DNA of 38,435 nucleotides from contig JARYLO010000012.1 in the NCBI GenBank assembly GCA_029907605.1, forward strand, positions 1-38,435. The letters are read 5' to 3'. Positions within the stretch are counted from its first letter, which is position 1. Each line of letters opens with the position of its first letter. A program made the translations under genes and the position numbers. The notes beneath the pieces are model-generated. The model worked only from the letters and a program-made list of their open reading frames with translations. It was not told the origin of the DNA and did no database searches. This stretch comes from Sedimentisphaerales bacterium. Lineage in GTDB: Bacteria; Planctomycetota; Phycisphaerae; Sedimentisphaerales; Anaerobacaceae. Below, piece by piece: positions 9,246 to 12,777 of the stretch.

Positions 9246-10916
9246 TCAGTACCTGGCTGCTAGGTCCTTGATCAGGGCCATGGCCATATCTATGTCGACG
9301 ATCTGGGACTGTTTGTCCGATCTGGGCTTGTATTCAAGGCCGCCTGCTGCCAAGGACCTCTTGCTTGCGGTCAGCCGTACAGGCAGGCCTATAAGGTCGC
9401 TATCTGCAAACTTCTGGCCTGCTGGGAGCATCCGGTCATCATAGAGGACATCGATGTTATCTCCCAAGAGCCTCTGGTAGACCTGCTGACAGGACTGGCA
9501 GGTCTGTGGGTCCTCGAGGTTCAGCCCTATCAGGTGCACCAAGAAGGGGGCTATACAGGCTGGCCAGCACAGACCTGCTTGGTCATGGAACTGCTCGGCG
9601 AGGATTCCTATGACCCTGGTCATGTTGAGCGTGCACCTACCTATGAATATGCCTTGCCTGTTGCCGGTCGCATCTACATATGAGAACTCGCCTATCGGTA
9701 CTGACCTGCAGAGGCGGACAAACTCCAGGCCTACTTGGCCTTCCAATCTGCCGTCACACCGAGGACAACCATCGCCTGGCTTGGCAAGCCTTATGTCCTC
9801 AAGCCTTGGCATGGGAAGGTCCCTGCCTAGGTTGACGTTTATCAGGTGGTAATTGGTACGGTTGGCCCCGCATTCGAAGTTGACCCTCCCACTGACATAG
9901 TGATCGGCTATTAGCAGGACCTCCTGCGGCAGCCCTACAGGACCGAGATATCCTATATCGCAACCTGTCAATTGCCTGACCTGGGCAGCGGGCAGCAGTT
10001 GGAGCCTCTTGCAACCCAAGGCCTTCCTTGTCTTGGCCAGGCTCACCTCACAATCGCCCCTGACCATCACTGCAACTGGCCTGCCATCAGCCTCAAATAG
10101 CATGGTCTTTGTAGTCTTCCAGAGGGGGATACCCAGGAATCGGGCGATAGCCTCTGTACTTATCAGGCCTTCGCCAAGCACAGACTCCATTGGCAGTTGT
10201 TGCTGATCCTGAGGATACTGATCCAGACGCGAACAGGCCCACTGTGCATCTGCCTTGTAACCACACCTATCGCATCTGAGCCAGAGGTGGTCGCCGTATT
10301 GGTTTGTGGCAACCAGACTCTGTGAGCACTTGGCTGCAGGACCTGGGTCTGAATCAAAGACCTCGTGCTTTAGCCCGATCCCCGTAAACACATCCGAACA
10401 GGCCTCCAGGATGCCTTGATACGATCGCTCGCTTGCATCTGAGCTTGGATCGAACGTGAAGGCCTCGATTACGTCGAACTCCCTTGGATCCAACAGCCCT
10501 AGGCCAGGCCTGGGCTTATCACTGAAGGATTTGCTCAGACAGAACAGGTACCTGGGCAGGTCCCTATGAGACTGGATAGTGTGGCCAGCTACCGTGCCCA
10601 GGGCCCCAGTGCAATCACCACCTATGGCCAGGCGCTGGTCTTTGAGCAAGATCCCCTGGACCTCCTCGATCGCTTCATCCCAGATGACAGGCCTCAGTAG
10701 AGGTATAGCGACCTCTTCAAAACCCGATTGGGATAGGCGTCTCTTTATCAGGCCGTACAGCTTCTGAAGGCTGCGGGCCAACAATGGCATGTATGCCCAA
10801 AGCCCTCCTTGGATCTGCTCCAACATGCCAGCCCTTACCAACAAGGACTGGCCAGGGGCCTGTATCTGCGCAGGTGCCTGCCTTCGCGTACGGCAGGTCA
10901 ACTGGGATTGCCTCAT
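9246..10916 (-). CDS. Prolyl-tRNA synthetase-like protein: degenerate catalytic site, intact editing domain
   Basis: A 556-residue protein collinear with bacterial ProRS, starting at the ATG (MRQSQL) behind GGAG with an 8-base spacer; that ATG overlaps the purN stop as ATGA. The catalytic core has lost family signatures. The GPTHEE loop is replaced by GGDCTGALG (about 99-107), motif 2 FRDE by FSDK (131-134), RPRFG by RPGLG, the SHEF segment by KCSQS, and motif 3 CYGIGVTR by RCTLNMTR (428-434). The insertion editing domain (about 245-370) keeps WKTTKTMLF, GYLGPVG and NFECGAN, and the C-terminal anticodon-binding domain keeps VLYDDR, AGQKFADSDLIGLP and EYK. Two CxxC pairs (215/218, 384/387) could bind zinc. 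It is probably not an aminoacylating enzyme; it may clear mischarged tRNA-Pro in trans. An automated annotation would call it proS. Confidence 0.85.
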   Translation of the reverse strand: MRQSQLTCRTRRQAPAQIQAPGQSLLVRAGMLEQIQGGLWAYMPLLARSLQKLYGLIKRRLSQSGFEEVAIPLLRPVIWDEAIEEVQGILLKDQRLAIGGDCTGALGTVAGHTIQSHRDLPRYLFCLSKSFSDKPRPGLGLLDPREFDVIEAFTFDPSSDASERSYQGILEACSDVFTGIGLKHEVFDSDPGPAAKCSQSLVATNQYGDHLWLRCDRCGYKADAQWACSRLDQYPQDQQQLPMESVLGEGLISTEAIARFLGIPLWKTTKTMLFEADGRPVAVMVRGDCEVSLAKTRKALGCKRLQLLPAAQVRQLTGCDIGYLGPVGLPQEVLLIADHYVSGRVNFECGANRTNYHLINVNLGRDLPMPRLEDIRLAKPGDGCPRCDGRLEGQVGLEFVRLCRSVPIGEFSYVDATGNRQGIFIGRCTLNMTRVIGILAEQFHDQAGLCWPACIAPFLVHLIGLNLEDPQTCQSCQQVYQRLLGDNIDVLYDDRMLPAGQKFADSDLIGLPVRLTASKRSLAAGGLEYKPRSDKQSQIVDIDMAMALIKDLAARY

Positions 10917-11983
10917 ACAAGGATCTCCACAGGTCTGACCTTGACCCTGTTGCCCTCTACCACAAGCCTCCCTGCTGCAAACAGCTCTATGGCCTCTGGA
11001 TAGGCGATGCACTCCTGCTCAAAGACCCGCCCAGCAAGGGTCTGGGGTGTATCGTCGTCCAGGACCGGGCATGTCCGCTGTATGATGATGGGGCCGCTGT
11101 CGTATTGGTCAGTGCAGAAGTGTACGGTACAGCCGCTGACCTTGCACCCTGCCGCCAGGACGGCCTGATGCACATGGATCCCATACATCCCTTTGCCGCC
11201 AAAGCTCGGCAGCAGTGCAGGATGTATGTTCATCACCTTGTTCTTGAAGACCTCCGGTATCCTCCACAAACATAGCCATCCTGCCTGGACCACCAGGTCC
11301 ACACCGGCCTTTGTGAGCTCCTCAGTGAGCCTTTGGCTAAAGGATTCTATGTCTGGGAAGTCCTTCCTGCGGATGATGCACAACTGCAGTCCAGCTGCCC
11401 TGGCCTTCTCGACCCCAGGTACGTCGCTGCGGGAACTGATGACCAGGCCGATCCTTGCGTTGAGTTCGCCTTGTTTGATCCTCTCAAGGAGGTTCATCAT
11501 GGTCCGGCCAGATCCGCTGATCAATACACCTAGGCAAATGGGGGGCCTGTTGGATGAGGTAGCCAGGCCATCTACATCCCTGCCAGCGTCTATGGCCTTG
11601 TTGACCAGTTTGTCCGCCTGCTTGTTCTGGGACCTGCGTACGTGTGTGACCTTCCAGCAAGCAAACTCAGCTAGCAAGGACTTGACCTTGTCATATAGCG
11701 GACGGATCCCAGGGCTTCGGACCGCATATTCACCTTGGACCTGCTTGGCCAACAATTGGCTATCGGTCACCAACTCTATGGCATCTGCGCCCAGGCGCCT
11801 TGCCGCCTCCAATGCCTTGATAAAGGCAGTGTATTCTGCAGCATTGTTGGTGGTCTGGCCAAGATAATAGCCCTTTGCAAATCGGATTGCACCTGAGGGA
11901 TCTGCCAATACTACTCCGGCACCGCCAGGACCTGGGTTGCCCCTGCTTCCTCCATCAGTGTATGCCACGATGTCTTGTGGCAA
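10913..11983 (-). CDS. purN: RNase HI - phosphoribosylglycinamide formyltransferase (PurN) fusion
   Basis: One uninterrupted frame of about 356 residues encodes two enzymes. Residues 1-135 form RNase HI with all four catalytic acids: Asp10 (YTDGG), Glu50 (NNAAEY), Asp74 (VTDSQ) and Asp124 (QADKL). After a linker of about 14 residues, residues 149-350 form PurN: GVLISGSGR near 152, Asn252-x-His254 in NIHPALLPSFGGKG, and Asp295 in YDSGPII. PurN transfers a formyl group from 10-formyl-THF to GAR; RNase HI cuts RNA in RNA:DNA hybrids. I chose the TTG at 11983 because AGAGGG lies 7 bases upstream and it falls 19 bases after the previous stop; the frame is open to a TTG at 12025. Its stop overlaps the ProRS-like start. 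Confidence 0.9.
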   Translation of the reverse strand: MPQDIVAYTDGGSRGNPGPGGAGVVLADPSGAIRFAKGYYLGQTTNNAAEYTAFIKALEAARRLGADAIELVTDSQLLAKQVQGEYAVRSPGIRPLYDKVKSLLAEFACWKVTHVRRSQNKQADKLVNKAIDAGRDVDGLATSSNRPPICLGVLISGSGRTMMNLLERIKQGELNARIGLVISSRSDVPGVEKARAAGLQLCIIRRKDFPDIESFSQRLTEELTKAGVDLVVQAGWLCLWRIPEVFKNKVMNIHPALLPSFGGKGMYGIHVHQAVLAAGCKVSGCTVHFCTDQYDSGPIIIQRTCPVLDDDTPQTLAGRVFEQECIAYPEAIELFAAGRLVVEGNRVKVRPVEILV

Positions 11984-12002
11984 TGTCTTTCCCTCTGACA
12001 GA

Positions 12003-12740
12003 CTAGGTTGCCTGGGTCTTGCCAAGGACCAGGATCCTTGTGCAATTTGGGCACCTGATGATCTCGTCCTTGGTCATCAGGAGGTTGACCGATTCTGTGG
12101 TGACGCCCATGAAACAGCCCCCGCAACTATAGCTGTGGGACCTGCCCTCCCCTTGTTCTATCTCCACCACCGCCTTGCCATCATAGGTCTCTGCAACACG
12201 CTTGAAGATCTCCAGGACATCTGGCGGTATTGTGCTAGCTACCTCGTCCCACTCGGCCTGGATCTGGTCTACCTCTGCCTGGAGCTTTGCGGCAGCAGCC
12301 TCAGTCTCGGTCCTTATCTGTTCGAGCTGACGCCTGTGCTCCTCTATCTGGGCCTGCAGTGCATCACATTCGGCCTCCTCTGCCTCTATGCCCTTCATCA
12401 ACTCCAGGATCTGGGTCTCCAATTTGGAATTGTCTGCCTTTGTGGTGTTAAGCTGGGTAAGGAGTGTGGCGTACTCCTTGTTTGTCCTGGCAGTGTTCAG
12501 CGCTGCCCTGTACTTGGCGATCTCCTGGTCCCTTGTCTTTAGCTCTAGGTCAAGGCGGTCACACTGCATCTTGGTCCGTTTGATCTCCTCCCTCTTTGCC
12601 TCCAAGGTCGCCTGTTCGGCCTTTATTCTACTCTCATGAATGGCAACAGTCCGCTTGCACCGAACCAGCCTTGCCTTTGCTGCACGTAGCCGATCTTCAA
12701 CCGCCTGTAACCGAACCAGCGCGTTCAGTAATGACCCCAT
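12003..12740 (-). CDS. Coiled-coil protein with C-terminal C4 zinc ribbon (COG1579/DUF164 family)
   Basis: About 245 residues. Nearly all of the first 170 residues are heptad-rich, highly charged coiled coil (Lys/Glu/Gln/Ala). The C-terminus is a zinc ribbon with two pairs, CGGC and CPNC, separated by about 20 residues. This matches the COG1579 family (C4-type zinc ribbon proteins such as chlamydial CdsZ), cytoplasmic proteins of uncertain function with nucleic-acid or envelope links. AGGAG lies 5 bases before the ATG at 12740; an in-frame start at 12761 lacks this. In mycobacteria a member of this family neighbours an RNase HI that is itself fused to a metabolic enzyme, so the linkage seen here recurs. 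It is the first gene of the three-gene minus-strand operon. Confidence 0.88.
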   Translation of the reverse strand: MGSLLNALVRLQAVEDRLRAAKARLVRCKRTVAIHESRIKAEQATLEAKREEIKRTKMQCDRLDLELKTRDQEIAKYRAALNTARTNKEYATLLTQLNTTKADNSKLETQILELMKGIEAEEAECDALQAQIEEHRRQLEQIRTETEAAAAKLQAEVDQIQAEWDEVASTIPPDVLEIFKRVAETYDGKAVVEIEQGEGRSHSYSCGGCFMGVTTESVNLLMTKDEIIRCPNCTRILVLGKTQAT

Positions 12741-12777
12741 CTGAGCTCCTGAGCATGCCAAAGAACCTTATTATTTT

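Follow-up and report, generated by a model that had tools for sequence, protein, structure and literature searches.

Sequence comparison confirmed the gene at positions 9246-10916, on the minus strand of the analysed DNA (38,435 nt, referred to as the window), as a full-length homolog of bacterial prolyl-tRNA synthetase (ProRS) that, judged by its residues, has no aminoacylation site. We estimate a probability of roughly two in three (0.66) that this protein, called pseudo-ProRS in the following, is a full-length trans-editing factor for mischarged tRNA-Pro. With a wrecked charging site and nearly intact domains for editing and tRNA reading, its sole task is most likely to clear mischarged tRNA-Pro. 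The features of the locus are given below, with INS denoting the editing domain, ABD the anticodon-binding domain, and residue changes written from E. coli to pseudo-ProRS.

9246..10916, minus strand: pseudo-ProRS coding sequence, 556 aa plus stop (ATG 10914-10916, stop 9246-9248)
10185..10916, minus strand: degenerate class II core, part 1, residues 1-244; 45/104 invariants kept
10599..10628, minus strand: ruined proline-binding TXE loop, AIGGDCTGAL versus xLGPTHEEVV (T109 to D101, E111 to T103)
10497..10529, minus strand: ruined motif 2, SFSDKPRPGLG versus KFRDEIRPRFG (R140 to S132, E142 to K134)
10263..10274, minus strand: retained CxxC (C215, C218), first half of a probable zinc ribbon (alignment)
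9783..10181, minus strand: intact INS, residues 246-378; 50/54 invariants kept, with K270, D338 and H357
9756..9767, minus strand: retained CxxC (C384, C387), second half of the probable zinc ribbon (alignment)
9702..9725, minus strand: remnant of the HIFxLGTKYS element, which is largely deleted (alignment)
9615..9641, minus strand: ruined motif 3 with its Arg kept, GRCTLNMTR versus GCYGIGVSR
9249..9575, minus strand: intact ABD, residues 448-556; 24/26 invariants kept
10913..12025, minus strand: RNase HI domain fused to a PurN-like formyltransferase in one open frame, upstream of pseudo-ProRS and overlapping its start
12003..12761, minus strand: CT398-like coiled-coil protein with a C4 zinc ribbon, overlapping the RNase HI-PurN gene

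Loss of the charging site

The reading frame runs uninterrupted through 556 codons between the ATG at 10916 and the stop at 9246-9248, and its start shares bases with the upstream TGA (ATGA). This overlap makes translational coupling plausible, in line with the original prediction of an intact, coupled frame. Together, the CT398-like, RNase HI-PurN and pseudo-ProRS genes form an apparent three-gene run. The protein is collinear with the bacterial ProRS families from end to end, yet it scored below the curated cut-offs of both PRK09194 (334.7 versus 558 bits) and TIGR00409 (261.2 versus 306.7 bits) and is thus not assigned by either equivalog as a catalytic prolyl-tRNA synthetase. The Pfam matches to tRNA_edit (PF04073, E = 1.5e-23) and HGTP_anticodon (E = 6.8e-10) were strong, and that to the class II core was sub-threshold (19.7 versus 29.3 bits).

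Residues were mapped by alignment with E. coli K-12 ProS. The motif changes originally named for the proline/ATP site all proved real, and the equivalents of Thr109, Glu111 and Arg140, whose mapping had been proposed, are lost, with the editing residues retained. In addition to the four replacements in the TXE loop and motif 2, we found R146 changed to G138, G445 to T429 and G447 to N431. The claim that every landmark is altered went too far: the proline/ATP residues are gone, but the motif 3 Arg (R450, R434 in pseudo-ProRS) and R144 (R136) are kept. Pseudo-ProRS nevertheless lacks the set expected of a catalytic ProRS, that is, T109, E111, R140 and the Arg and Glu of motif 2. Loss of charging activity is, on this alignment, near-certain.

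The AlphaFold model of pseudo-ProRS (pLDDT 85, pTM 0.82) adopts the ProRS fold, with a TM-score of 0.91 against E. faecalis ProRS (2J3L chain A). INS and ABD were confidently folded both in this model and in that of an active control, L050. On the substrate side, residues 74-100 of pseudo-ProRS fell below pLDDT 50, whereas the equivalent stretch of the control was ordered into helices and strands (pLDDT ~75-88). Disorder of the motif 2 loop was discarded as a sign of loss, since pLDDT is low there in the active control too. Pseudo-ProRS resembles bacterial ProRS with INS (TIGR00409/PRK09194; 2J3L) in full-length homology, INS, anticodon domain and fold, and differs from it in the destroyed aminoacylation site and in falling below both cut-offs.

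The protein might still be a synthetase whose pocket has been remodelled to accept a different amino acid or a special tRNA. The retained R434 and R136 would fit this idea, as would Streptomyces ProRSx, a documented ProRS duplicate that serves a new tRNA and, like pseudo-ProRS, stands beside a housekeeping ProRS; it is the only ProRS case listed in a review of aaRS duplication (PMC9437257). However, ProRSx itself keeps proline charging, with a dedicated tRNA bearing an Ala anticodon, whereas pseudo-ProRS has lost its catalytic residues. No tRNA gene occurs within the 38,435-nt window. The loss of the motif 2 Arg and Glu, the missing TXE loop and HIFxLGTKYS element, and the absence from the model of substrate-side elements seen in the active relative all argue against charging, and we regard this explanation as very improbable.

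Retention of the editing and anticodon-binding domains

Invariant positions were taken from 14 related catalytic ProRSs of the same type (B type, see below). Pseudo-ProRS keeps 59/133 of them in the core (45/104 plus 14/29), 50/54 in INS and 24/26 in ABD, which bears out the earlier description of the editing insertion and anticodon domain as canonical. The core thus retains 44% and INS plus ABD 93% (74/80) of the invariants (Fisher p = 1.4e-13). This core-loss asymmetry was absent from leave-one-out controls among the active enzymes, and resident A-type ProRSs showed the reverse pattern. Identity to the B-type enzyme of a sister species was 32% in the core, 64% in INS and 55% in ABD, compared with 81-84%, 74-76% and 55-62%, respectively, in active pairs. 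The core is hence the most conserved part in active pairs and the least conserved in pseudo-ProRS.

The Lys, Asp and His expected of an INS deacylase domain are all present, with K279, D350 and H369 of E. coli ProRS corresponding to K270, D338 and H357. We take D350 and H369 to be editing-site residues. K279 is critical for editing in the E. coli enzyme (PMC3973320). Next to the catalytic Lys and His lies a B-type editing signature (W266, T268, T269, Y323, E348 and C349 in pseudo-ProRS numbering), which occurs in all dead copies described below and in none of the resident ProRSs compared.

A second ProRS, the B-type lineage and other dead copies

The original prediction suggested searching the genome for a second, complete ProRS, perhaps of the archaeal type. 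The same assembly does encode one, with all catalytic motifs; it is of the bacterial type with its own INS, which carries the K279, D350 and H369 equivalents, and no archaeal-type ProRS was found, this enzyme being the sole other ProRS in the genome. Its downstream genes match those after the intact ProRS of the sister species (whose contig matches Phycisphaerae MAG JAGOQT01). The shared ProRS and shared neighbours indicate that the resident enzyme is native to the lineage and make contamination of its contig unlikely.

Pseudo-ProRS had been called a paralog, but the gene does not resemble a copy of the resident ProRS. By INS and ABD, its nearest homolog is a catalytic second ProRS of the sister species, the B type, and it looks like a degenerate member of this distinct lineage. 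B-type ProRSs are recognised by two CxxC pairs and the KTTKT/FECGAN editing signature. Otherwise they were found in Verrucomicrobia, Deltaproteobacteria, Acidobacteria and another genome of the same family; B-type ProRS was likely acquired horizontally. A pattern scan of viral contigs for a viral origin of pseudo-ProRS yielded no relative. The catalytic B-type gene of the sister species is split over two contig ends (L046:1-1299 and L047:3-665; C256, C55), whose overlap differs slightly, and the split is probably an assembly break. Two Desulfobacterales B-type ProRSs have odd charging motifs (L078:8001-9707 and L077:8001-9713; APAHEE, GGYSIDINR; GCYCLGVSR). Each was the only ProRS match found in its genome, and they could be intermediates, or else active enzymes whose pockets are unusual.

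Five further genomes, four from Acidobacteriota and one a deltaproteobacterial MAG, carry full-length dead B-type copies. A genome scan yielded the deltaproteobacterial locus and three of the Acidobacteria loci; the remaining copy came from one more Acidobacteria genome. The dead copies display the same asymmetry as pseudo-ProRS, with ruined charging motifs and intact INS and ABD. The deltaproteobacterial copy is less degenerate: its motif 2 Arg is replaced by His and its motif 3 Arg is retained. An intact ProRS accompanies the dead copy in genomes G117, G127, G128 and G129 (by copy counts) and G130. Among the hits examined in about 1,200 sampled genomes of three phyla (score thresholds, evenly drawn samples, only the best loci read), dead copies were confined to these five genomes and that of the window. 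The sampled genomes held no close dead relative of pseudo-ProRS, and the dead copies have no obvious gene neighbourhood in common.

In a tree of full-length sequences, pseudo-ProRS grouped with the Acidobacteriota dead copies (support 98/86) on a long branch of 1.65 changes per column. When only INS and ABD were used, it joined the catalytic copy of the sister species (93/88), the Acidobacteria dead copies formed their own clade, and the deltaproteobacterial copy joined Desulfobacterales. Repeated loss of charging is favoured over a single origin of the dead copies, although a single-origin topology was not rejected (p-AU 0.44 with Acidobacteriota; adding L074 gave 0.22).

Among three Acidobacteriota dead copies with 86-91% identity, a set to which the window protein does not belong, dN/dS was 0.20-0.22 overall and lowest in INS (0.10-0.14). 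These copies are under purifying selection. In the intact ProRSs of the same Acidobacteria genomes, the strongest constraint lay in the core.

These results bear on the idea that pseudo-ProRS is a young pseudogene in decay: a ProRS that was acquired horizontally, was redundant and lost its function, and whose frame is still open by chance. The persistence of a catalytic B-type copy in the sister species and the long branch of the window copy are compatible with decay, and the dead relatives are too distant to show selection on the window gene itself. We nevertheless consider decay quite improbable. The losses are uneven (74/80 versus 59/133 invariants), and codon-position GC resembles that of the neighbouring genes in all four parts of the gene. 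In-frame stops number zero, compared with 14.5 (range 6-24) in a neutral simulation, crude in using one starting sequence and a simple substitution model run to the same core divergence. The comparable Acidobacteriota copies, moreover, are under purifying selection.

Alternatively, pseudo-ProRS could be a regulatory or partner pseudo-enzyme that binds tRNA-Pro or heterodimerises with the resident ProRS, sensing uncharged tRNA or tuning the enzyme, with hydrolysis not under selection. Retention of the class II fold and ABD would suit such a role. There are precedents in the duplicated ThrRSs of Anabaena, which form heterodimers (PMC4787780), and in aaRS-like proteins that have taken on new roles (PMC9437257). 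However, neither tRNA binding nor partnership would require the INS hydrolytic residues and 50/54 INS invariants that are kept, INS is the most constrained part of the Acidobacteriota dead copies, and no regulatory domain has been added. We judge this role unlikely, and no specific evidence points to the tRNA-Pro sensor that the original prediction had also named.

A predicted trans-editing role

The predicted editing role of pseudo-ProRS is well supported by the comparison of its parts: in sequence, the proline/ATP site is destroyed, and the INS hydrolase site and ABD are conserved. In such a role, the separate, intact ProRS would charge tRNA-Pro, the anticodon domain of pseudo-ProRS would bind tRNA-Pro via its anticodon, and the dead core would act as scaffold and dimer platform. 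INS would then hydrolyse mischarged aminoacyl-tRNA-Pro released by the resident enzyme, the amino acid most likely being Ala, possibly another small one. By itself, the INS of E. coli ProRS does not discriminate between tRNAs; it tolerates acceptor-stem changes without depending on acceptor-stem recognition, and relies on the anticodon domain (PMC3973320). Since tRNA choice is made through the anticodon domain, INS plus ABD is the set that a tRNA-Pro-specific editor needs. Pseudo-ProRS may pair with itself or with the resident ProRS, forming a homodimer or a heterodimer. The latter is conceivable because the ProRS dimer binds a single tRNA (PMC6344894), and because full-length ProRS is described as capable of trans-editing, as is apo-ThrRS T1 (PMC4787780).

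The main objection to trans-editing is redundancy: the resident ProRS has its own INS with the equivalents of all three residues, so that Ala editing could be superfluous. The B-type INS signature may confer a different amino-acid specificity, which would be a possible answer. Tentatively, B-type ProRS may have been converted several times independently into a full-length, charging-dead editor where a working ProRS without that signature was present, supplying an editing specificity absent from the cell's own ProRS.

A search with window positions 9828-10160 detected no freestanding INS-family protein of the YbaK/ProXp type in this genome, although at 94.6% completeness the absence may reflect incompleteness. 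One is carried by the sister species and by most of the family members sampled. Some relatives without a dead ProRS also lack it, and of the four Acidobacteriota genomes that have a dead ProRS, three do encode it. A correlation between dead ProRS and missing freestanding editors is thus only suggestive.

Pseudo-ProRS shares with YbaK and ProXp a homologous INS hydrolase and a proposed trans activity on mischarged tRNA. INS superfamily members other than the ProRS INS are, however, single-domain proteins according to a 2024 review (PMC11295145), whereas the INS of pseudo-ProRS is embedded in a full-length pseudo-synthetase of 556 aa that has the complete ProRS architecture, including an anticodon domain of its own. 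Anabaena apo-T1 ThrRS is likewise a full-length protein that does not charge; it edits in trans, also as a heterodimer (PMC4787780). Its loss of charging is reversible (zinc), whereas that of pseudo-ProRS is fixed in sequence. Archaeal ThrRS-ed is depicted as editing plus anticodon domains (PMC11295145). As in that case, a synthetase relative without a charging site has been reduced to editing and anticodon binding beside an intact charging enzyme, but the family and editing domain differ, and pseudo-ProRS keeps the whole dead class II core.

Known INS-family trans-editors are described as either recognising the acceptor stem or relying on ProRS for tRNA specificity, and ThrRS-ed is a trans-editing ThrRS relative that works alongside a separate charging enzyme. 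If our reading is correct, pseudo-ProRS would be a trans-editor equipped with an anticodon reader, making it the equivalent, for tRNA-Pro, of archaeal ThrRS-ed. In the open-access literature searched, no full-length pseudo-ProRS editor is described. How anticodon recognition is relayed to the distant editing site has been raised as an open question (PMC3973320), for which this natural separation of charging and editing on a ProRS scaffold should be useful. It would also provide an example of redundant synthetases turning into quality-control factors.
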